This document shows positions 766 through 9,609 of a stretch of 33,474 bases of DNA, in pieces. The notes under the pieces were generated by a model. It was not told the DNA's origin and ran no database searches. It saw only the letters and a list, made by a program, of their open reading frames with translations. Source of the DNA: an uncultured Treponema sp. (GTDB taxonomy: Bacteria > Spirochaetota > Spirochaetia > Treponematales > Treponemataceae); NCBI GenBank assembly GCA_947167345.1, contig CAMVHR010000033.1, forward strand, positions 1-33,474. Direction: 5' to 3'. The position numbers and the translations under genes are program-made. How positions within the stretch are numbered: the first letter of the stretch is position 1; each line of letters starts with the position of its first letter.

Positions 766-1526
766 ATTTCTTGATGTTAAAGACTATTACTGTTATACAT
801 GAACCTTCTAATGCTGAGCCATTTGTTGTTTTACATAAACCTAGAGGCTTGCCTAGTGCTCCTTTAAAAGATGGGGATGAAAGCGCATACACTCAGGCTG
901 AATTATTATTCCCGTCATTACGAAATGTTAGTGGAAAAAAGAATGTTGAACATGGACTTGTTCATAGAATTGATACAGAGACCGAAGGTCTTCTTTTGAT
1001 TGCATCTTCTCAGAAATTTTATGATTATATGCAGAATATACAGAAGAAGGGGCTTTTTTTTAAGACTTATAAAGCTGTTTGCGATGTAAAAATCAGAGAG
1101 AAGGAGAAACTTGTTGAAAAAGGTTTTCCTAAAGATTCACACTTTATTGATCTAAATGATTCTGATGTTGATTGTGTTGTAAAATCTTACTTTAGGGCTT
1201 ATGGTCTTGGTAGAAAGCAAGTTCGTCCTGTAATAGATGTGTCTGGACGTGCTGCAATGAAAAAGGCTTCTGCGGATGTTTATGAAACTCATGTAACAGG
1301 GACTTTTGATGTTGACAGAACGGTTTGCAATGTTACTTGCTCAATAACAAAAGGCTACAGGCATCAAGTGCGGTGTCATCTTGCATGGATTGGGCTTCCT
1401 ATAAAAGGTGATCCTATTTATTCAAAACTTTATAATGGGCATGATGAAAGCAGTGATTTTTATTTTACTGCTACAGGATTTGGATTTCCATGCATTGGTG
1501 GAACTGAAGTGAGGTTTTCGCTATAG
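762..1526 (+). CDS. Second RluA-type pseudouridine synthase
   Basis: A 254-residue protein with the motif HGLVHRIDTETEGLLLIAS, in which the Asp of HRIDTETEG is the expected catalytic residue. A C-terminal GYRHQVRCHLAWIGLPIKGD segment also fits the family. It is more divergent than the gene before it, with TETEG in place of DTSG. The GTG start at 762 gives a 4-base GTGA overlap with the upstream stop, typical of coupled translation. ATG at 774 is an alternative start. The RNA target is unknown. It is the last intact host gene before the prophage scar on the left side. Confidence 0.88.
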   Translation: MNFLMLKTITVIHEPSNAEPFVVLHKPRGLPSAPLKDGDESAYTQAELLFPSLRNVSGKKNVEHGLVHRIDTETEGLLLIASSQKFYDYMQNIQKKGLFFKTYKAVCDVKIREKEKLVEKGFPKDSHFIDLNDSDVDCVVKSYFRAYGLGRKQVRPVIDVSGRAAMKKASADVYETHVTGTFDVDRTVCNVTCSITKGYRHQVRCHLAWIGLPIKGDPIYSKLYNGHDESSDFYFTATGFGFPCIGGTEVRFSL

Positions 1527-1950: not shown

Positions 1951-3621
1951 ATGGACTATGAATATAACCAGTATGCCGATGATGTTGCTGGCGGACGGAT
2001 TACAGTCTGCCGTACTGTAAAGCTGGCGGTAAAAAGGCACCTGAATGACCTCAAAAGACAGGAAGACTCCTTTCCGTACATATTTAAGGACGATTATGCG
2101 CAGCGGGCAATAGACTTTTTCTGTGAGCAGGTGCATACGAAAGGTGCGCTTGCAAGGCAGAAACTGCATCCTGAGCCGTGGCAGCAGTTCATCATAGCCA
2201 TGATTTACGGATGGCGGCGCAAGGACAACGGCAAAAGGCGGTTCCGCAGGGTCTACCTGCAGGTGGCGAGGAAGAACGGCAAGACTTTCTTTGCATCGGG
2301 TGTGGGGCTTTATGACCTTGTGTCGGAGCCTGGTGCGGAAGTGTATTCCGGGGCAACCAAGAGGGACCAGGCAAAGATTGCTTTTACCAACGCAAAGAAT
2401 ACCGTCCGTTATTCGTCCGTGCTGTCACAGTTCATAAAGGTTCATGCCCAGAGCCTGACGTGCGGTGACGGGAAGTTTGAGGCTCTCAGCTCCGACAGCA
2501 AGATGCAGGACGGTCTCAATCCCTCATGCGCAATCATTGACGAATATCACGCCCATAAGTCTGACGAGCTTCTGAACGTAATAGAATCGGGCATGGGCGC
2601 AAGGCAGCAGCCGCTTACATTCATAATAACTACCGCAGGTCATGAGCTTTCAAATCCTTGTCATGAGGAATACGAGCGTGTCTGTAAGATGCTGGAAGGA
2701 GCGAAAGGCTATGAGAATGACAGCTATTTTGCCATGATTTACGAGCTTGACAAGGGTGATGATCCTTCCAATGAGCACAACTGGATAAAGGCAAATCCCA
2801 ACCTTGACGTTTCCGGGGCAATAAGTACGGACGACCTTCGCAAGGCCCTAATGAATGCAAGGCAGAAAAGCACGGGCATGGCGGAATTCCTCACCAAAAG
2901 GATGGACGTATGGATCAACAATGCCGAATGCTGGATTGACGACATGCACTGGAGCAGGTGCGTGAAGAGGTTCAGCGAGAAGAACCTTACGGGGCTAAAG
3001 TGCTTTGGTGCCCTTGACCTGTCAAAAACCACCGACTTTACGGCATATACTCTCTATTTTCTGCTGCCGGACGGCAGAAAGTATGCGAAGCACCGTTTTT
3101 ACATTCCGAAAGACATGATTGAGGTTAGGATGCGCACTGATACATATCTTATTGAAAAATGGGTGAAGGGCGGTTACATAACGGCGACACCAGGCGAGAC
3201 GGTTGATTACAGCTTCATGTTCGAGGACATCAGGAAGGACGCACAGGTCTATGACATTGAGGAAATCGCATACGACCGCAACCTTTCAAGCCTTATAATC
3301 GCACCTCTCGCGGACAGCTTCAACATGGTGGAGTTCAACCAGGGCATAGCGTACATGAGTGAGCCTAGCAAGGCATGGGAAAAGGCTGTGTCTGAAAGAA
3401 AAATAATTGACAACAATCCCGTCATGCGCTGGATGGTCAGCTGTGCGACGATAAGGACAGACCCGAACGACAACATAAAGGTTGTAAAGCCTCAGTTCAC
3501 GAAGAGCAGCAAGCGAATTGACGGAGTCATTACCAGCATAATGGCAAACAACCGCCTTGACGTGTACTATGCAGCTGATGCGGCCGAAAAGTCCATGGAC
3601 GTAAGCAGGATGATTTACTGA
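1951..3621 (+). CDS. terL: Terminase large subunit
   Basis: The ATPase/nuclease motor that cuts and packages phage DNA through the portal. The 556-residue length is usual for the Terminase_1 family. The Walker A-type motif ARKNGKT is at residues 106-112 and the Walker B IIDEY, with Asp-Glu at 197-198, follows. A conserved acidic strand ALDLSKTTDFTAY later in the protein fits the RNase H-like nuclease. ATG 1951 comes directly after an in-frame TAA, so no longer version exists. Only a weak GGG-rich ribosome site precedes it. A terminator-like hairpin follows the stop at once. Small-subunit partner: only possible scraps upstream. Confidence 0.95.
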   Translation: MDYEYNQYADDVAGGRITVCRTVKLAVKRHLNDLKRQEDSFPYIFKDDYAQRAIDFFCEQVHTKGALARQKLHPEPWQQFIIAMIYGWRRKDNGKRRFRRVYLQVARKNGKTFFASGVGLYDLVSEPGAEVYSGATKRDQAKIAFTNAKNTVRYSSVLSQFIKVHAQSLTCGDGKFEALSSDSKMQDGLNPSCAIIDEYHAHKSDELLNVIESGMGARQQPLTFIITTAGHELSNPCHEEYERVCKMLEGAKGYENDSYFAMIYELDKGDDPSNEHNWIKANPNLDVSGAISTDDLRKALMNARQKSTGMAEFLTKRMDVWINNAECWIDDMHWSRCVKRFSEKNLTGLKCFGALDLSKTTDFTAYTLYFLLPDGRKYAKHRFYIPKDMIEVRMRTDTYLIEKWVKGGYITATPGETVDYSFMFEDIRKDAQVYDIEEIAYDRNLSSLIIAPLADSFNMVEFNQGIAYMSEPSKAWEKAVSERKIIDNNPVMRWMVSCATIRTDPNDNIKVVKPQFTKSSKRIDGVITSIMANNRLDVYYAADAAEKSMDVSRMIY

Positions 3622-3647
3622 CGCTCTGCTAATGCAGGGCGTTTTTT
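3622..3647 (+). terminator. Intrinsic terminator between terL and portal
   Basis: CGCTCTGC (3622-3629) pairs with GCAGGGCG (3634-3641), including one T-G wobble, around the loop TAAT. Six T residues follow. This is a textbook rightward terminator one base after the terL stop. It is unexpected inside a head operon and implies a separate promoter, or anti-termination, for portal and the genes beyond. Confidence 0.75.
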
Positions 3648-3670
3648 CATGCCCGAATGACTGTATTTTT

Positions 3671-4957
3671 ATGAAGCTGTTTGGACTTGAAATCAGAAGG
3701 GCACCGAAGAAAGTGCCACTTTCTCAATATACTGGAAACTGGACTGGGGCATTCCGCTATCATACGGACATGACTGTAGCTGAACTGCTGGAAAACGCAA
3801 CCGTAAATGCCTGTGTCGGTGTTATTTCCGATGCAGTGGCATCACTTCCTGTCGGTGTGTACAGGAGAGTTTCGGACGGAGGAAGAAAACTGGAGTCAAA
3901 GGCTCCTCTTTACCGTCTGCTGAAAATACGGCCAAACCTTAACCAGCATACATTCGTACTGTTAAAGCAGATCATGATGCATCTTCTGCTCAGGGGAAAT
4001 GCCTTTATCTTCAAGGAATGGGAAGGAACTGAGCTTACAGGGCTTTCCGCACTCAATCCTGAAGCAATGGAAATCCGCAAGATGGAAGGCAGAAACGAAT
4101 ACTACTACCGCTATCATCTTGACGGCTCTGTCTATGACCTTACCAGAGACAGCATACTTCACATTCCTGCAATGGTGTGGCGTGGGGTATGGGGGCTTTC
4201 TCCTATTGAATATGCAAACAAGGCAGCCCATCTTGGCAACAGGATGGATGATTACGCAGAGCATGTGTTTGACGGTGGAATTCACTCAAAGCTGAAAGTC
4301 ACGGTTCCAATGTCTGAGAAGAATTTTTCAGAAGATGATGCAAAGAAGCTGAAAGAGCGTCTTGCGAGTGCTTACGGCGGAGTAGAGAATGCAAAGTATC
4401 CTTTCATACTCACGCAGGGAATGCAGGCGGAATCGCTGAATCTTCCGGGGAACTCTGACAGCCAGCTTGTAGAGAACCGCAGTTATTCTGCAAAAGAAGT
4501 GGCTAAGATATTCCGTGTTCCGCTCTCAAAACTTGGTGAGGCAGACGCAAAGTACAATAACAATGAGCAGCAGGAAAGAAACTTTTTGCAGAGCACCCTT
4601 AATCCATGGTTAAGGCTTCTGGAGCAGTATTTCTGTGATTTACTGCCTGTATATGACCGTGAGGACTGCTACGTAGAGTTTGACAGAAACGCCATGCTGC
4701 AGGCGGACAGCTCAATAAGGATAGAAAACTACCAGAAGCAGCTTCTGCACGGAATGCTCACTCTTAACGACATCAACAGGATGGAAAACCGCCCTCTTAT
4801 TGACCCTAAGATTGGCGATGTCCGCTTTATGCCTGTAAATGAGGCTCCTGTAACTCCTGAGTATGTGGCTGCATACATGGCAAATCAGAAAGCCATGCTG
4901 AAAGCTCAGGAAGAAGGTTCTGACGGTAAAAAAAAAGAGAACTCGGGCAGTCTGTAG
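3671..4957 (+). CDS. Portal protein (HK97 family)
   Basis: Forms the dodecameric ring at the capsid vertex through which DNA passes. The protein is 428 residues and matches the HK97-type portal pattern, for example PLYRLLKIRPN, LLRGNAFIFKEW and ILHIPAM. The C-terminal half contains the usual VPLSKLGEADAKYNNNEQQ segment. An earlier ATG at 3632 lies inside the terminator hairpin, so ATG 3671 (MKLFGLEIRRAPKK) is preferred, although neither has a good ribosome site. The end encodes DGKKKENSGSL. The lysine codons are an unbroken A9 run, from which a -1 shift enters an open frame of 165 more residues. Confidence 0.93.
   Translation: MKLFGLEIRRAPKKVPLSQYTGNWTGAFRYHTDMTVAELLENATVNACVGVISDAVASLPVGVYRRVSDGGRKLESKAPLYRLLKIRPNLNQHTFVLLKQIMMHLLLRGNAFIFKEWEGTELTGLSALNPEAMEIRKMEGRNEYYYRYHLDGSVYDLTRDSILHIPAMVWRGVWGLSPIEYANKAAHLGNRMDDYAEHVFDGGIHSKLKVTVPMSEKNFSEDDAKKLKERLASAYGGVENAKYPFILTQGMQAESLNLPGNSDSQLVENRSYSAKEVAKIFRVPLSKLGEADAKYNNNEQQERNFLQSTLNPWLRLLEQYFCDLLPVYDREDCYVEFDRNAMLQADSSIRIENYQKQLLHGMLTLNDINRMENRPLIDPKIGDVRFMPVNEAPVTPEYVAAYMANQKAMLKAQEEGSDGKKKENSGSL
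4928..4936 (+). other. A9 slippery run, candidate -1 frameshift site
   Basis: Nine A residues encode Lys-Lys-Lys in the portal frame (GGT AAA AAA AAA GAG). Slipping back one base gives AGA GAA CTC and continues in frame 1 to 5433 without a stop. The frame -1 ORF opens only at 4930, just after a TAA, and has no ATG, GTG or TTG until 5134. Long A runs support both ribosomal and polymerase slippage. A real single-base indel or a sequencing error would look the same. Confidence 0.6.
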
Positions 4958-5433
4958 CCGATTTTTTAACAGAATTCCGCGACTTTGACGAATCTGAGCA
5001 TCCTCGTGATGAACATGGGCGTTTTGTCTGCAAAGGAGGTGGCTCTGCCGGCATTCTAAGGGAAAAGTCTGTTAAAATCCTCAAAAGTAAAATAGGTAAT
5101 TATACAAATCTAAAATATGATGTTGACGCACATTTGAACGGTCGGAGCATTAAAAAACTAACCAGTGACAAAGCTTTGAAAAAATCGCTTGACAATGGGT
5201 TTACAAAATCCAATCATTTTGAGGCAGCCGCAAGAGTATTTGCCTTGTATAAAAAGGCGACAAAAATGAAGCCTGAAAAGGACAGAAATTCAGACCCAAA
5301 CATATTGTCCGTAAAAAGATTTTATACAGATTTTAAATTGAAAAGCGGAAAACAGGCAACAGTAAAGATTACTGTAAAAGAAACCAAGCAGAATGGGCAC
5401 ACAATTTATTCTGTTGAACTTCTGAAAAAATAA
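4930..5433 (+). CDS. Frame -1 portal extension with LPD3/PBECR-like nuclease domain
   Basis: Read after a -1 shift at the portal A9 run, this adds 165 residues to make a fusion of about 587. It begins with a linker FDESEHPRDEHGRFVCKGGG, a sequence type often seen in phage head proteins before a variable toxin-like domain. The C-terminal part (NGRSIKKL, SNHFEAAARVFALYK, VKRFYTDFKL, VKITVKETK, YSVELLKK) resembles the LPD3/PBECR group of barnase/colicin E5-like RNase folds. That is a family-level judgement by eye. From about 5050 the DNA becomes markedly more AT-rich than the portal gene, which suggests a swapped-in domain. If translated alone the only start is TTG 5134, without a ribosome site. 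A broken gene remains possible. Confidence 0.6.
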   Translation, partial: KKRELGQSVADFLTEFRDFDESEHPRDEHGRFVCKGGGSAGILREKSVKILKSKIGNYTNLKYDVDAHLNGRSIKKLTSDKALKKSLDNGFTKSNHFEAAARVFALYKKATKMKPEKDRNSDPNILSVKRFYTDFKLKSGKQATVKITVKETKQNGHTIYSVELLKK

Positions 5434-5616: not shown

Positions 5617-6012
5617 TCAAGATTTTATAAATCCAGTTACGTCTTTGAGGTTCTTTACGGTCTGCAGGACCTTCATGATGGCGGTGTTTTCTGCCTGGAA
5701 TCTGATTCCCTGTACCGTGATGGACGGATTTTCAATCTTTATACCGAACCTCTCGTATTGTTCCCTATCTTCAAACGGATCTTCTGCATCCGGTTCCCCA
5801 TAATCAGAAACCTTTATTCCTGTGACGAATCCTTCCCGAATCATCATGTCCAGAATTCGGGCAAACCTGTTCCGACTAATGCCAAAATGTTCAGCAGTGA
5901 AGTTTTCCCTGTCAAAAATGTCAGAATCAAGGCTCTTTTCAATGTAGTGCAAAATCCGGCACATTACGCTGAATGTGGTTTTCATGATTAAATCATCGGT
6001 TTTATCCTTCAT
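5617..6012 (-). CDS. YjcQ-family winged-helix phage protein
   Basis: A 131-residue protein of the YjcQ type, small phage proteins with a winged-helix fold and unproven function. The middle segment (ENFTAEHFGISRNRFARILD, then REGFVTGI) and the C-terminal VQGIRFQAENTAIMKVLQTV followed by a K-rich helix fit the family. ATG 6012 is taken as the start; ATG 5985 (MKTTFSVMCRIL) is possible. A longer TTG start at 6051 would lie inside the repeat array and is not favoured. The gene runs against all its neighbours, with its own terminator downstream, so it behaves as an inserted moron. The inverted repeat and 23-bp array directly upstream suggest it may regulate itself and the divergent lysis operon. 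Confidence 0.75.
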   Translation of the reverse strand: MKDKTDDLIMKTTFSVMCRILHYIEKSLDSDIFDRENFTAEHFGISRNRFARILDMMIREGFVTGIKVSDYGEPDAEDPFEDREQYERFGIKIENPSITVQGIRFQAENTAIMKVLQTVKNLKDVTGFIKS

Positions 6013-6147
6013 GCAAATACAGTCACAACTTATTAAGAAGTTGTGACGCAATTACTTAAGAAGTTGTGACGCAATTACTTAAGAAGTTGTGTCGTGATTA
6101 CTTAAGAAGTTGCGTCGCAAACTTTAAAGCAAAAGTGACTGTATTGC
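6013..6147. promoter_or_regulatory. Divergent control region with nested inverted repeats
   Basis: GCAAATACAGTCAC (6013-6026) is mirrored by GTGACTGTATTGC (6135-6147), so the pair frames the whole repeat array. Inside, GTCACAACTT (6022-6031) and AAGTTGTGAC (6038-6047) form a perfect 10-bp operator-like palindrome overlapping the first repeat. On the minus strand TTGTGA, 16 bases, GATAAA is a possible promoter for the yjcQ-like gene, overlapping this palindrome. I see no convincing plus-strand promoter hexamers. Binding of a dimeric regulator is inferred. Confidence 0.55.
6033..6124 (+). repeat. Four tandem 23-bp repeats (iteron-like)
   Basis: Copies lie at 6033-6055, 6056-6078, 6079-6101 and 6102-6124. 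The first two are identical, the third differs at a few positions and the fourth is more diverged. Each begins TTAAGAAGTTG and contains the half-site TTGTGAC or a variant. There are no spacers. The period is close to two helical turns, so bound proteins would line up on one face of the DNA. The array is between divergent genes, with no replication gene nearby. Confidence 0.9.
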
Positions 6148-6157
6148 AGGGGCGGCT

Positions 6158-6409
6158 ATGAATGATGAAATAAACCTGACAAAGACTATCATGGACATTT
6201 ACGAAAAAGTTACTTCCATACAAAAGGACACCCAGCACCTTACAAAAAGGGCAGACGTTACTGACTCCGCCATAAAGGAGCTTGAAAAGCGGCTTGACAA
6301 GGTTGAAGCCGGTGGAGCAAAGGAAAAGGCAGAGATGTTTGACTATGTTGTCAAAGGCATAGTGACCGTAGCAATCAGCTTTGCGGCCGTAAGGCTTGGA
6401 CTTAAGTGA
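6158..6409 (+). CDS. XhlA-like small membrane protein of the lysis cassette
   Basis: An 83-residue protein with an N-terminal amphipathic, coiled-coil-like stretch (IMDIYEKVTSIQKDTQHLTK to EKRLDKVEAG) and one C-terminal hydrophobic helix (VVKGIVTVAISFAAVRLGL). This is the layout of XhlA-type proteins, which assist holin and endolysin at the membrane. ATG 6158 follows a GGGGCGG ribosome site. It is the first gene after the repeat array, directly upstream of the holin. The assignment rests on architecture and position rather than a diagnostic motif. Confidence 0.6.
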   Translation: MNDEINLTKTIMDIYEKVTSIQKDTQHLTKRADVTDSAIKELEKRLDKVEAGGAKEKAEMFDYVVKGIVTVAISFAAVRLGLK

Positions 6410-6416
6410 GGTGCAG

Positions 6417-6692
6417 ATGGATTGGGATTATGTCGGAAAGATAGCCGTTTTTACAGTAGGAGTTACACAGCTGATCAAGAAGTTCGTGCAGCCCAAAAGC
6501 GACAGGATTAAGGTTTTGATCACCGTGCTTTCTGGAGCTGCTGGCGGACTGCTACTGTATTACCTGCCACAGCAGGTTTTCCTGACGGTAGTAGGTGTAT
6601 CGGTGGGAGTGCTTTTCTATGACGGAATACTGAAAGCCGTTGAAAAGCGTATTTCGGAACTGGGAATTGCTTCAAAAAAGGAGGATATATGA
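6417..6692 (+). CDS. Putative holin
   Basis: A 91-residue protein with two or three hydrophobic segments: KIAVFTVGVTQLI near the start, then VLITVLSGAAGGLLLYYLP and VFLTVVGVSVGVLFYDGI. The tail is charged (KAVEKRISELGIASKKEDI). Holins of this size let the endolysin or its signal out of the cytoplasm. ATG 6417 has GAGG about 6 bases upstream and is preferred over the TTG at 6396. The end overlaps the start of the next gene by 4 bases. No specific holin family is recognised, so the call rests on topology and context. Confidence 0.65.
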   Translation: MDWDYVGKIAVFTVGVTQLIKKFVQPKSDRIKVLITVLSGAAGGLLLYYLPQQVFLTVVGVSVGVLFYDGILKAVEKRISELGIASKKEDI

Positions 6693-7156
6693 GATGCATA
6701 AGAAAAATGCTTTTGTTCGTGCTGTGCTTCGCACTGTGCTCTGTAGTGTTCTGCTTGCAGCAGCCTGCTTTCTCGCAGGATGCGCAAGCACGCAGGGAAG
6801 GATTGACGGCTCTGTCATCGAGCATCAGAGACGGATTGGAGAATATCAGGCTTCAGTCCAGTATTATCTCGGAAGAATTGATGCAGGTGCGGAACGAATT
6901 GACGGTATCAGAGAAAGAGCGGAAAGCCTTGGAGGAGAAGTCGACGGCATTATCGGACTCTTTGATGAATATCAGCGGGCAGTTGAACAGCTGCTACGAG
7001 ACTATGAAGCTTTACGAGATGCAGTTGAAAAGGCAGAAAAAGACGCTGTCGGCGCTTATTCTGGTTTTTACGATCCTGGTGGTCCTGAAGATATGCGGGT
7101 ACTTCCTTTACTGGAAGGGAATAAGGGTTCCGCGGTGGCTGGACATACTGCTTTGA
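6689..7156 (+). CDS. Candidate inner-membrane spanin (frame 2 of overlapping pair)
   Basis: A 155-residue protein with an N-terminal hydrophobic signal or anchor (MLLFVLCFALCSVVFCL), then a long coiled coil (about 35-115) rich in Glu, Lys and Leu heptads. A strong membrane helix follows near the C terminus (about 120-141, LSALILVFTILVVL) with a short positive tail. It thus has a periplasmic coiled coil fixed to the inner membrane. It overlaps a lipoprotein gene in another frame over almost its full length. AAGGAGG at 6678-6684 precedes ATG 6689 by 4 bases. A C-terminal anchor is unusual for an Rz-type spanin, which is anchored at the N terminus, so the partner role is inferred. Confidence 0.65.
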   Translation: MRCIRKMLLFVLCFALCSVVFCLQQPAFSQDAQARREGLTALSSSIRDGLENIRLQSSIISEELMQVRNELTVSEKERKALEEKSTALSDSLMNISGQLNSCYETMKLYEMQLKRQKKTLSALILVFTILVVLKICGYFLYWKGIRVPRWLDILL

Positions 7157-7170
7157 GGAGTCCTTTCTGA
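6694..7170 (+). CDS. Candidate outer-membrane spanin lipoprotein (frame 1 of overlapping pair)
   Basis: A 158-residue protein starting MHKKNAFVRAVLRTVLCSV with a clear lipobox LAGC (Cys 30), so a signal peptidase II lipoprotein. The mature part is a long alpha-helical, coiled-coil-like region (RRIGEYQASVQYYLGRIDAG and on to about residue 125), then a Gly/Pro-rich tail. Disruption of the outer membrane together with an inner-membrane partner is the expected spanin role. ATG 6694 is 5 bases after the start of the frame-2 gene and can use the same AAGGAGG. The stop TGA overlaps the next ATG by one base. ORF extension up to 6640 would run into the holin gene and is not favoured. Lambda Rz1 is a precedent for nesting, but it is much shorter. 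Confidence 0.7.
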   Translation: MHKKNAFVRAVLRTVLCSVLLAAACFLAGCASTQGRIDGSVIEHQRRIGEYQASVQYYLGRIDAGAERIDGIRERAESLGGEVDGIIGLFDEYQRAVEQLLRDYEALRDAVEKAEKDAVGAYSGFYDPGGPEDMRVLPLLEGNKGSAVAGHTALRSPF

Positions 7171-7631
7171 TGGGTGACGTTAGGCAAAAATACACGGGAT
7201 GGCAGACCGTCCTTCTGAACAACAGGAAGCTTCTGGAAGAAGACTTTTCTAAAATAGGCAATTACGGCTGCCTGTTCCTGTGCCTGTGCTCCATTGCGGA
7301 GGAATGGAACGAGGCAAGGCACAACCAGCGAAGGGTAGATGTGCTTGACCTTTACATAAAAAGCCGGAACAAAGGTTTCTTGAAGGAAGATTTTTTCTGC
7401 AAGGATCAGTGTGCAATCCTTGCACTGGCAACAGGACAGGAATGGAAAAAGGAAGTCTTTGAAAGTATGCCTGGACCTGTTCCGTGGAATTCCTATACCG
7501 TTGAAAAATGGCATAACAAAAGAACGGATCTTACACATTTCAGAAGGCGGTGGGGTGATACCGTTGCATCAAGCGTAACCGTCCGTGAAGGTGTCTTGCA
7601 GGAATATTACATTTATTCGGTCGTCCTTTGA
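7170..7631 (+). CDS. DUF261-like protein, candidate endolysin
   Basis: A 153-residue protein with a segment YGCLFLCLCSIAEEW near residues 32-46 that resembles the start of DUF261 proteins of Borrelia cp32 phages. It looks like a papain/C39-like fold, with a Cys after Gly at the head of a helix. Possible His partners are further on, including one in EKWHNKR. If it is a cysteine peptidase or amidase it would be the cell-wall enzyme of this lysis block, which otherwise has none. GAGGAG lies 10 bases before ATG 7170. No signal peptide is seen, which fits a holin-dependent enzyme. The function remains inferred. Confidence 0.55.
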   Translation: MGDVRQKYTGWQTVLLNNRKLLEEDFSKIGNYGCLFLCLCSIAEEWNEARHNQRRVDVLDLYIKSRNKGFLKEDFFCKDQCAILALATGQEWKKEVFESMPGPVPWNSYTVEKWHNKRTDLTHFRRRWGDTVASSVTVREGVLQEYYIYSVVL

Positions 7632-7658
7632 GGTGACCATGATTTATAGAGGTGCATG

Positions 7659-8393
7659 ATGGCAGGTAAAAACAACGGGCTGTCATTCTGCAGCGTATCT
7701 TCTCGCGTAGAGGTGCGCAGCAAGGATGACGGCAAGAAATTCATAAAGGGTGTGATACCCTACGACAAGGAATCTGAGAATCTGGGTTACTTTGTCGAAA
7801 TCATCAGGAAAGGTGCATTCAGTAGATCCGTAAAAGACGGTGACATAATATGCATGTGGGCACATAACAGCCAGTACGTGCTTGGAAGGTCATCCGCAAA
7901 GACTCTTGTACTTGAAGACCGTGATGACGGACTTCATTTTGAATGTGAGCTCTCCAATGCATCATGGGCTTCTGATGTGTATGAGGCTATAGAACGCGGT
8001 GACGTTCCCGGTGTCAGCTTCGGTTTCCGTGTTGTACAGGATAAGTGGACAAGGTTTGAAGGTGATCAGCCTTCATTGAGGGAACTTCTGGACGTTGACC
8101 TTTTTGAAATCAGTGTTGGAGTCGCTTTCCCTGCCTATCCCGATGCATCCGCCAGTACGAGGGAGCTTTTCAAGGAAGCTGGTATTGACGTTGACAAGGT
8201 TTCTGCAGTCCTTGCACGTGCAAAGTGCGGAAATGACTGTCTAAATGAGGATGATGTAATGGTCTTTAGAAATGCCATCTCATCACTTGAAAAATTTATT
8301 CCTGTTCCAAAGCCTGTTTCTTCTGAACCTGCATATCTTGGCAGGGCTAGGGAAATTGAGATTCTTGAGGCAGAGACCACAATAGGAGATTGA
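7659..8393 (+). CDS. Prohead maturation protease (HK97/S78 family)
   Basis: Cleaves scaffold sequences from the capsid protein during head maturation. The protein is 244 residues. The catalytic His is in MWAHNSQ (His 69), the nucleophilic Ser in GVSFGF (Ser 120), and the acidic strand LFEISVGVAFPAYPDA follows, all in the usual order. ATG 7659 is preferred over ATG 7656 because the AGAGGTG ribosome site ends at 7654 and leaves better spacing. It precedes the capsid gene by 4 bases, as in most HK97-type head operons. Confidence 0.93.
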   Translation: MAGKNNGLSFCSVSSRVEVRSKDDGKKFIKGVIPYDKESENLGYFVEIIRKGAFSRSVKDGDIICMWAHNSQYVLGRSSAKTLVLEDRDDGLHFECELSNASWASDVYEAIERGDVPGVSFGFRVVQDKWTRFEGDQPSLRELLDVDLFEISVGVAFPAYPDASASTRELFKEAGIDVDKVSAVLARAKCGNDCLNEDDVMVFRNAISSLEKFIPVPKPVSSEPAYLGRAREIEILEAETTIGD

Positions 8394-8397
8394 AAAT

Positions 8398-9609
8398 ATG
8401 AACGAGTTTGAAAAGCTTTCCTTGCAGGAAAAGATTGACGTCCGCGAGCATACCATTAAGGAAATGCGCACCCTCAATGAGGGATGTAAGGACGATAAAG
8501 GAGAAATCCGCGCCTTTACTGCAGAAGAGGATTCAAAGTACAAGGCAATGTCTGAAGATGTCCGCAAGCTTACGGATCTTATTGCAAAGGAAAAAAGAGA
8601 GCTTGAGCTTAAAGGCTTTACAAGCTCTGTTCCTTTTGCAAATCCTGAAGGTGGAAACGGAAAGAACGGCTCACAGCTTGAGGTTTTCCGCCATTACCTT
8701 TGCACTGGTGAAATCCGCGCCGACATGGACAAGAGAACTCTTTCCGTTGACGACTCTGGGGCTGCAGCAGTCCTTGCTCCTCAGGAACTTGTAAAGCAGA
8801 TTCTTTCACCTGCAGAAAGCAAGTTCTCACTTCTTGACAGGGTTTACACTGTCCATCTTAGCAAGGCAAGCGGAATCGGCGTTCCTTATGAAAAGACCGA
8901 CGCTTCTGATGCTGACTGGACTACTGAAATTCCTGAAAGCATCAAGGATGATGAGGATCTTGAATATGCAAAGCGTGAGCTTGGTGCACACATGCTCATA
9001 AAGCTCATTACTGTATCTGACAAGACTTTGAAGACAAATGCTTTCAACGTTGAGCAGCTCATTGCCGACAAACTTTCATACAAGATGCGTTCAGCTCTTG
9101 AAAAGGGTATTGTCGCAGGAACTGGTACTGGTCAGCCTCTCGGCCTTTTCGTTGCAAGTGCCAAAGGAATAAGCACCGCCCGTGACATTGCAGCTGCTTC
9201 TGCAACAGCCCTTGACGGTGACGACATCATCAAGGCAAAACGCAGCGTAAAATCTGTTTACCGTTCAAGAGGAGAATGGCTTTTCCATCCTGATACAGTA
9301 ACAAAGCTCCTTACACTTAAGGACAAGAACGGACAGTACATCTGGCGCTCAGGCCTTACAGTAAATGATCCTGATACTCTTGACGGATCACCTGTAATAG
9401 AAAGCGAGTTTGCTCCTGCTGAAATGGCAACAGGTGCTTATGTCGGAATGTTCGGCGACTATTCAAAGTACTGGATGACAATGGTTGACTCTATTGCAAT
9501 CCGCCGTCTTGAGGAAAAGTACTATCCTTCCGTAGGATTCAGTGCAAAGACTTATGCGGACGGACAGCCAGTCCTTGAAGAGGCATTCTGCCGCATCAAG
9601 ATGGGCTGA
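8398..9609 (+). CDS. Major capsid protein (HK97 fold)
   Basis: A 403-residue capsid subunit. The first 90 or so residues are charged and helical (LQEKIDVREHTIKEMRTLNE and on), as in the delta scaffold domain that the protease removes. The rest shows HK97 hallmarks such as LVKQILSPAESKFSLLDRVY, the EKGIVAGTGTGQPLGLF loop and the C-terminal GDYSKYWMTMVDSIAIRR. GGAG before ATG 8398 is a good ribosome site. Codon use is highly biased, as expected for the most abundant virion protein. A hairpin follows the stop. Confidence 0.95.
   Translation: MNEFEKLSLQEKIDVREHTIKEMRTLNEGCKDDKGEIRAFTAEEDSKYKAMSEDVRKLTDLIAKEKRELELKGFTSSVPFANPEGGNGKNGSQLEVFRHYLCTGEIRADMDKRTLSVDDSGAAAVLAPQELVKQILSPAESKFSLLDRVYTVHLSKASGIGVPYEKTDASDADWTTEIPESIKDDEDLEYAKRELGAHMLIKLITVSDKTLKTNAFNVEQLIADKLSYKMRSALEKGIVAGTGTGQPLGLFVASAKGISTARDIAAASATALDGDDIIKAKRSVKSVYRSRGEWLFHPDTVTKLLTLKDKNGQYIWRSGLTVNDPDTLDGSPVIESEFAPAEMATGAYVGMFGDYSKYWMTMVDSIAIRRLEEKYYPSVGFSAKTYADGQPVLEEAFCRIKMG

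Follow-up and report, generated by a model that had tools for sequence, protein, structure and literature searches.

Two-component spanins consist of an o-spanin, which carries an outer-membrane lipoprotein signal, and a type II i-spanin with an N-terminal transmembrane domain (TMD), and their genes are adjacent or overlapping and usually lie within a lysis cassette (Kongari et al., 2018; PMC6139136). According to the sections of that survey on which we draw, at least one periplasmic cysteine is present in 507 of 528 spanin systems, the working model (Rz, Rz1) is fusion of the two membranes, the search was confined to type II i-spanins, and a type I protein with a C-terminal TMD was proposed as a possible i-spanin (section 15; PMC6139136). 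The i-spanins listed in the part of a further source that we consulted have N-terminal TMDs (PMC7692668). No case of a type I i-spanin was seen among the papers listed by searches of an open-licence library, a result that falls short of proof of absence. In the present work, we describe a pair of overlapping genes in a prophage region of an uncultured Treponema sp. (contig CAMVHR010000033.1 of assembly GCA_947167345.1, here G000:C33, part of a 3.2-Mb genome; the 33,474 bases analyzed are referred to as the window). Judged from sequence, the two products, an inner-membrane protein (i) and a lipoprotein (o), are likely the partners of a two-component spanin, by which the outer membrane is broken in the final stage of lysis, a reading to which we assign a probability of roughly 0.74, and the inner-membrane member is likely anchored at the end opposite to that of lambda Rz.

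The genes for i (6689..7156, 155 residues) and o (6694..7170, 158 residues) both lie on the forward strand, and were delimited from the sequence and from homologues, with hydropathy and AlphaFold prediction as additional evidence for i and a lipobox rule for o. The o frame is +2 (equivalent to -1) relative to i, and the two genes have 460 nucleotides (nt) of sense codons in common (6694-7153), or 463 nt when the stop codon of i is counted, as in a preliminary description of this DNA. Direct reading likewise bears out the two starts and product lengths given there, with ATG 6689 and ATG 6694 standing 4 and 9 nt, respectively, behind a single AAGGAGG ribosome binding site (6678-6684, forward strand). 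Sharing of one binding site holds for the window, but in certain relatives (L002, L023) o comes first and a possible AGGAG for i lies within codons 2-3 of o; this arrangement, which is also found in L046, potentially constitutes a second mode of starting both frames.

The N terminus of i (residues 1-29), which begins MRCIRKMLLFVLCFALCSVVFCLQQPAFSQ, resembles a signal peptide (AFS|Q) and is followed by a predicted helical exported domain, a C-terminal membrane helix (about residues 122-140) and a tail, KGIRVPRWLDILL, with PRWLDILL at residues 148-155 (7130-7153). Signal-peptide and lipoprotein calls were based on rules and Kyte-Doolittle hydropathy, the 19-residue maxima of which in i are 2.28 at residue 7, 0.14 in mid-protein and 2.56 at residue 122 (7052..7108, forward strand, the best window of the C-terminal helix). 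Cleavage of the signal is a prediction, and a second, N-terminal anchor in i is conceivable. The single-chain AlphaFold model of i contains helices at residues 26-70 and 75-143, with a mean predicted local distance difference test score (pLDDT) of 70.5 and a predicted template modeling score of 0.38; of the coiled coil claimed earlier it upholds the long helical region, beyond which the coiled coil itself is not supported. The i tail, of the PRWLDILL or IPYLLNLLL type, is well preserved across loci, even those in which o stops short of it, and therefore probably has a function of its own. The lipobox of o is FLAGC, with Cys30 (codon 6781..6783, forward strand) as the lipid-type cysteine. Protein o also carries a conserved LFDEYQRAVEQLL stretch, and in the window its hydropathy profile contains no hydrophobic segment after residue 50. 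When the whole window was scanned on both strands for a lipobox, a hydrophobic core and a Shine-Dalgarno sequence, o was the only open reading frame (ORF) that passed.

The same layout is present in 34 loci with intact overlapped pairs, the number left after removal of duplicates and chance matches (the window, 13 IMG/VR loci and 20 genome loci). Independent events are fewer than 34, because some of the counted loci are identical in i (L039 and L038) or 91-96% identical (L043-L008, L041-L042, and L002-L023). The frame of o relative to i is the same in all 34 loci, the start offset ranges from -22 to +5 bases, and the overlap measures 321-460 nt (median 405.5), corresponding to 73-100% of i (median 91%) and 90-100% of o (median 98%). 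At a hydropathy threshold of 1.6, the C-terminal hydrophobic helix of i passes in 34/34 loci and an N-terminal hydrophobic segment passes in 28/34 i proteins and 33/34 o proteins, and no segment in the middle of i or later in o does so. The o lipobox satisfies a loose rule in 26 of these loci, and the anatomy originally described from the window, viz. a lipoprotein together with a C-terminally anchored membrane protein, recurs in relatives. An alignment of o (A7) that extends down to 20% identity has Cys30, Phe90, and Tyr93 invariant in its 24 rows, which were chosen and leave out loci lacking a standard lipobox. As to periplasmic cysteines, the window i has one in residues 31-110, 12/34 i proteins have none there, and 7/34 o proteins have a cysteine after residue 48. 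Outside the overlapped set, L027 (G093) has its genes side by side, lipoprotein then i, non-overlapping with an ATGA junction; hhalign identifies its i as a homologue with a probability of 97.7 over 76 C-terminal columns, and its lipoprotein has no detectable homology to o beyond the lipobox. We count the position of this i directly behind a separate lipoprotein gene as a point for the predicted spanin pair. L028 is a remnant of both frames.

These data bear on whether both frames are genes at all. Several lines of evidence indicate that the doubly coding gene pair is almost certainly real, and the alternative, that only one frame is a gene and the other an accident of codon usage, is extremely improbable. 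With the i protein of the window fixed, the o frame was open in 0.36% of 5000 synonymous codon permutations and in 0/5000 sequences with codons resampled from seven long window ORFs; with o fixed, the i frame was open in 1.5% by permutation and 0.04% by resampling. The corresponding values for 23 overlapped loci, with window codon usage as the resampling pool for all of them, were 0-13% and <=0.02% with i fixed and 0.02-15% and <=0.26% with o fixed. The similarity of the partner frame in 22 chosen pairs of loci was reached by <=1 of 400 synonymous permutations in 21/22 pairs, with i fixed and with o fixed alike, the exception in both directions being L029-L006 (22 and 7 of 400), and the partner z exceeded the third-frame z in 44/44 tests. 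For 10 further pairs the partner z was 1.0-10.0 and above the third frame in 20/20 tests, the weak cases being L029-L055 (1.0) and L054-L055 (1.7) with i fixed and L006-L049 (2.2) and L060-window (2.3) with o fixed. Six close pairs, which have some loci in common and are only partly independent, supplied 89 single changes silent in i. None of these introduced a stop into o, against an expectation of 5.5, and the resulting o changes were milder than expected in 6/6 pairs (P < 0.05 in 3). The 51 changes that are silent in o introduced no stop into i (2.8 expected) and were likewise milder in 6/6 pairs (P < 0.05 in 2).

Rates at silent sites agree with dual coding in part. The proportion of synonymous sites that differ (pS) in i, compared with flanking genes, was 0.19 vs. 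0.22-0.49 (L008-L022), 0.44 vs. 0.71-0.82 (L038-L041), 0.09 vs. 0.18-0.69 (L041-L042) and 0.09 vs. 0.38-0.73 (L002-L023). Between the window and L003 it was 0.31 vs. 0.60, 0.62, and 0.67 in the three nearest genes, a comparison clouded by recombination because the protease and head genes are also low (0.23 and 0.29, with 0.51 further on). Other results speak against coding in both frames. The L023-L040 pair has the opposite pattern (0.32 vs. 0.00-0.14 in the flanks), and z is also elevated in the third-frame control (-1.0 to 7.8), so that the partner signal is partly non-specific, since a raised third frame fits constrained DNA or shared descent. The naive ratio of nonsynonymous to synonymous change (pN/pS) of o was 0.48-1.20 over the six close pairs and exceeded 1 in two (1.14 in window-L003 and 1.20 in L038-L041); this ratio is biased because the silent sites of o are second codon positions of i, and it still lends no support. 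The preliminary description had named one frame broken with the other kept as an observation that would tell against it, and one locus, L067, is of this kind, with i kept and o broken by stops. L067 is read as a relic because it has few ORFs around it and an intact copy, L049, lies in the same genome. Set against these points are both frames kept in one register in 34 intact loci, the invariant residues of o in the chosen rows of A7, and the codon-shuffle, partner-similarity, and silent-change tests, which in both directions support coding in both frames, as had been claimed.

The loci were gathered from IMG/VR scans and whole-genome searches, with genome counts that include the window's own genome. 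Protein searches at E <= 0.001 returned 5 relatives for i and 17 for o. Whole-genome searches found matches in 2/59 genomes with i and 4/117 with o, and profile searches in 4/392 genomes across the phylum with o (among them G175, judged a chance match), 14/200 across the genus with i (weak matches included), and 25/390 across the order with a wider i profile (several weak or chance). A genome-contig search with alignment A1 gave no match, and tblastn of the window i, the window o, and the L006 i against 50,697 phage records gave none at E <= 0.01. The count of 34 includes L040, the i of which is truncated by a contig end, and loci with TTG starts (o of L064 and i of L046); it leaves out repeat fetches of one place (e.g., L009, second copy in G067), and four Treponema metagenome-assembled contigs matched by alignment A5 were taken as those of G021, G501, G091, and G525 and not re-counted. 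Candidates that were dropped comprise L019 (G175, E 9e-4), L052, and L063, judged chance repeat or coiled-coil matches; L061, which resembles a different small membrane protein; and L030, L031, L056, L057, L059, and L062, which lie within long frames of 489-698 residues. A 3,336-base region around the pair is present twice, in identical form, in one single-contig genome (L006 and L009 in G067:C1).

The prophage region of the window has the order portal (3632-4957), XhlA-like gene, holin-like gene, overlapping pair, DUF261-like gene, and head maturation protease (7656-8393), with a terminase at 1951-3621 and a major head protein at 8398-9609. The XhlA/haemolysin-like small membrane protein (6158..6409, forward strand, 83 residues), a putative holin or holin partner, matches PHROG 937 (“hemolysin”, E 9e-7), PHROG 1193 (“hemolysin”, E 2e-5), and, under the family cut-off, Pfam XhlA (E 0.008). 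The holin-like protein (6417..6692, forward strand, 91 residues) is so called from its position, its hydrophobic segments, and a relative at the equivalent place in L003; it matches the holin family PHROG 1299 at E 0.089 only and has no Pfam match. On the other side of the pair, the candidate endolysin (7170..7631, forward strand) scores 21 bits against DUF261 (Pfam PF03196), short of the curated cut-off of 26.1, and is filed as DUF261-like only; neighboring genes in L038 (66.9) and L054 (27.5) pass this cut-off. It is possibly papain-like, with Cys34 and His123 invariant among 7 aligned rows and a predicted structure (pLDDT 83) that compares with papain-like peptidases at middling Z only (best 7.3). 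The genes are tightly packed: the holin-like stop TGA (6690-6692) lies within the ATGA of i, and the o stop TGA (7168-7170) runs into the ATG of the DUF261-like gene (7170) via TGATG. Just 5' of the lysis genes, 6003-6140 contains direct repeats at 23-base spacing with a unit like CAATTACTTAAGAAGTTGTGACG, best preserved at 6026-6117. Between the portal and the lysis genes, 5134-5433 encodes a lone LPD3 domain (Pfam E 1e-13), perhaps a remnant of a larger polyvalent protein.

The earlier reading of the two as lysis genes is supported by the adjoining holin-like and hydrolase genes, an association that extends to relatives. At 16 loci, picked by eye from the 34, the neighboring candidate hydrolase was given to Pfam, and 10/16 were above the curated cut-off, in the families Amidase_2 (L012, L015), CHAP (L002, L046), C39_2 (L049), DUF261 (L038, L054), M15/VanY (L060), and M23 (L064, L065). 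Four further candidates (window, L006, L008, L055) match DUF261 under the cut-off. The six DUF261 cases count as lysis neighbors only if DUF261 is a hydrolase, because its function is unknown according to Pfam. Genes for Lipase_3-domain proteins lie directly 3' of the pair in L010 (5513-6127) and L026 (1919-2554), and possibly represent a lipid-attacking lysis enzyme. The L032 pair sits two genes upstream of a Mu Gp27-like gene, which suggests that L032 is a Mu-like prophage.

Repeated association with several unrelated cell-wall hydrolases and with holin-like genes argues against i and o forming an envelope complex with another role, such as superinfection exclusion, lysis timing, antiholin or endolysin control, or a domesticated host function. 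The combination of a lipoprotein with an inner-membrane helical protein, which is what a spanin requires, and the failure of every other window ORF in the lipoprotein scan point the same way, and we consider such a role unlikely. Its strength lies in the spanin function of the pair being a prediction, and in a number of observations that weigh against that prediction. The loose lipobox rule is failed by 8/34 partners. Four of the eight have non-standard forms (LFSDC in L023 and L040, FWRGC in L032, and LGGGC in L050), and four distant kin (L054, L055, L064, and L066) have no suitable cysteine in the partner N terminus; in addition, L029 passes only as FVRGC, and L006 and L010 only with a cysteine at -3. 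The four cysteine-less loci are weak profile matches (E 8e-6 to 8e-4), of which L054 and L055 nevertheless adjoin DUF261-like genes, and this far branch may be read either as a variant with another anchor or as a different use of the pair. Two of the 16 hydrolase candidates (L050, L058) have no Pfam match. Downstream of the L032 pair, the next gene (1098-1412, reverse strand) weakly matches PHROG 739 “Rz-like spanin” (E 0.0067), and in that locus another gene could be the spanin. No recognizable phage genes were seen by eye around L027, and L053 adjoins a Schlafen/AlbA_2 gene. Sequence similarity to known spanins does not rise above noise: two of 19 i rows match PHROG 3268 “spanin” (best E 6e-4) and one matches PHROG 89 “Rz-like spanin” (E 0.003), standing among equally weak tape-measure and other matches; 3/24 o rows match PHROG 89 (best E 0.003); and the window i and o matched no spanin family. 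In L027/L068 (G093), L053 (G592), and L066 (G598), pairs or similar genes have neighbors with no resemblance to phage lysis genes, and these may be domesticated copies.

It may also be asked whether i alone is a unimolecular spanin, with an N-terminal lipid and a C-terminal helix, and o an accessory. Unimolecular spanins have the same C-terminal anchor, and a lipobox-like N-terminal cysteine is present in 5/34 i proteins (L010, L012, L015, L029, and L050). The remaining 29, including that of the window, have no such cysteine, 13/34 have no cysteine at all in residues 11-36, and most loci preserve o as a lipoprotein. In the window, neither i, which has no lipobox, nor o combines a lipobox and a C-terminal TMD in one chain, and this alternative appears very improbable.

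If i and o do form a two-component spanin, they would be translated from one message beside the holin and endolysin genes. Protein i would be exported via its N-terminal signal until its C-terminal helix halts it in the inner membrane (N-out, C-in), with the helical domain facing outward, and o would be lipidated at Cys30 and placed in the outer membrane with its exported domain facing inward. Across the periplasm these domains would come into contact, with the cell wall as a restraint until its removal by the endolysin, whereupon the complex would collapse and fuse or tear both membranes. Anchor by anchor, the pair would then have the same polarity as a unimolecular spanin, distributed between two chains, with the inner partner inverted relative to lambda Rz. 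On balance, and with less assurance than for the spanin function itself, we favor the wider proposal that spirochaete phages lyse their hosts with such an inverted two-component spanin (a C-terminally anchored type I i and a lipoprotein), overprinted end to end since a time that precedes the divergence of the host families in this order, so that the unimolecular polarity is split over two proteins from one stretch of DNA. Were this correct, spanins could function with an inner anchor at the N or the C terminus, which would constrain models that require the partners to meet C terminus to C terminus. It would also furnish an instance of the type I i-spanin put forward, and not searched for, in the 2018 survey, provide candidate outer-membrane lysis genes for Treponema prophages, and offer a search recipe (a co-extensive -1 frame, a signal, and a C-terminal helix) for phages now called spanin-less. 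Retained as it is in loci of two host families, the overlap of 107-153 codons is also a strong example from nature of stable overprinting.

With respect to known systems, the pair has the lipoprotein signal of an o-spanin (FLAGC, Cys30) and the gene arrangement of a lysis cassette (460-nt overlap, holin-like and endolysin-like neighbors), and appears to lack the N-terminal TMD of a type II i-spanin, the C-terminal helix being present in 34/34 loci and the window i beginning with a signal-peptide-like N terminus. It is not filed as a classical two-component spanin, and from its predicted anatomy would work like one. The claim that this layout lies outside the classic examples is consistent with the restriction of the 2018 survey, in the sections cited, to type II i-spanins (PMC6139136). 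The pair resembles lambda Rz/Rz1 (embedded) and P2 LysB/LysC (overlapped) in consisting of a lipoprotein and an inner-membrane helical protein with overlapping genes that adjoin holin and endolysin genes, and in having o in the -1 frame, as do 116 surveyed systems if the naming in section 8 of the survey is so meant (PMC6139136). It differs from both in the full length of its two members, in sequence similarity, which is not above noise, and in the predicted anchoring of i, for which an N-terminal signal and a C-terminal helix take the place of an N-terminal TMD. The starts nearly coincide here, o beginning at about 0.01 of the length (L) of i; for embedded o-spanins, the survey gives starts at 0.4-0.5 L in about 70% of cases (PMC6139136). 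Among spirochaetes, the Leptospira transposable prophages (PMC8705779) likewise have predicted lysis modules, but o-spanins are defined there as embedded in i-spanin genes, and the text examined contains no type I layout; in the main text of a 2024 study of 38 Treponema prophages (PMC11144348), a term search gave no occurrence of “spanin”, “lysis”, “holin”, or “endolysin”. The unimolecular spanin T1 gp11, as far as the sources used describe it, is likewise held in the outer membrane by an N-terminal lipid and in the inner membrane by a C-terminal TMD, but is one chain with a mainly beta periplasmic domain, whereas in the present pair each anchor has its own polypeptide and the prediction for i is helical. 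Finally, the type I i-spanin stands in the cited part of Kongari et al. (2018) as a possibility without an example, whereas here it is represented by a conserved candidate family.
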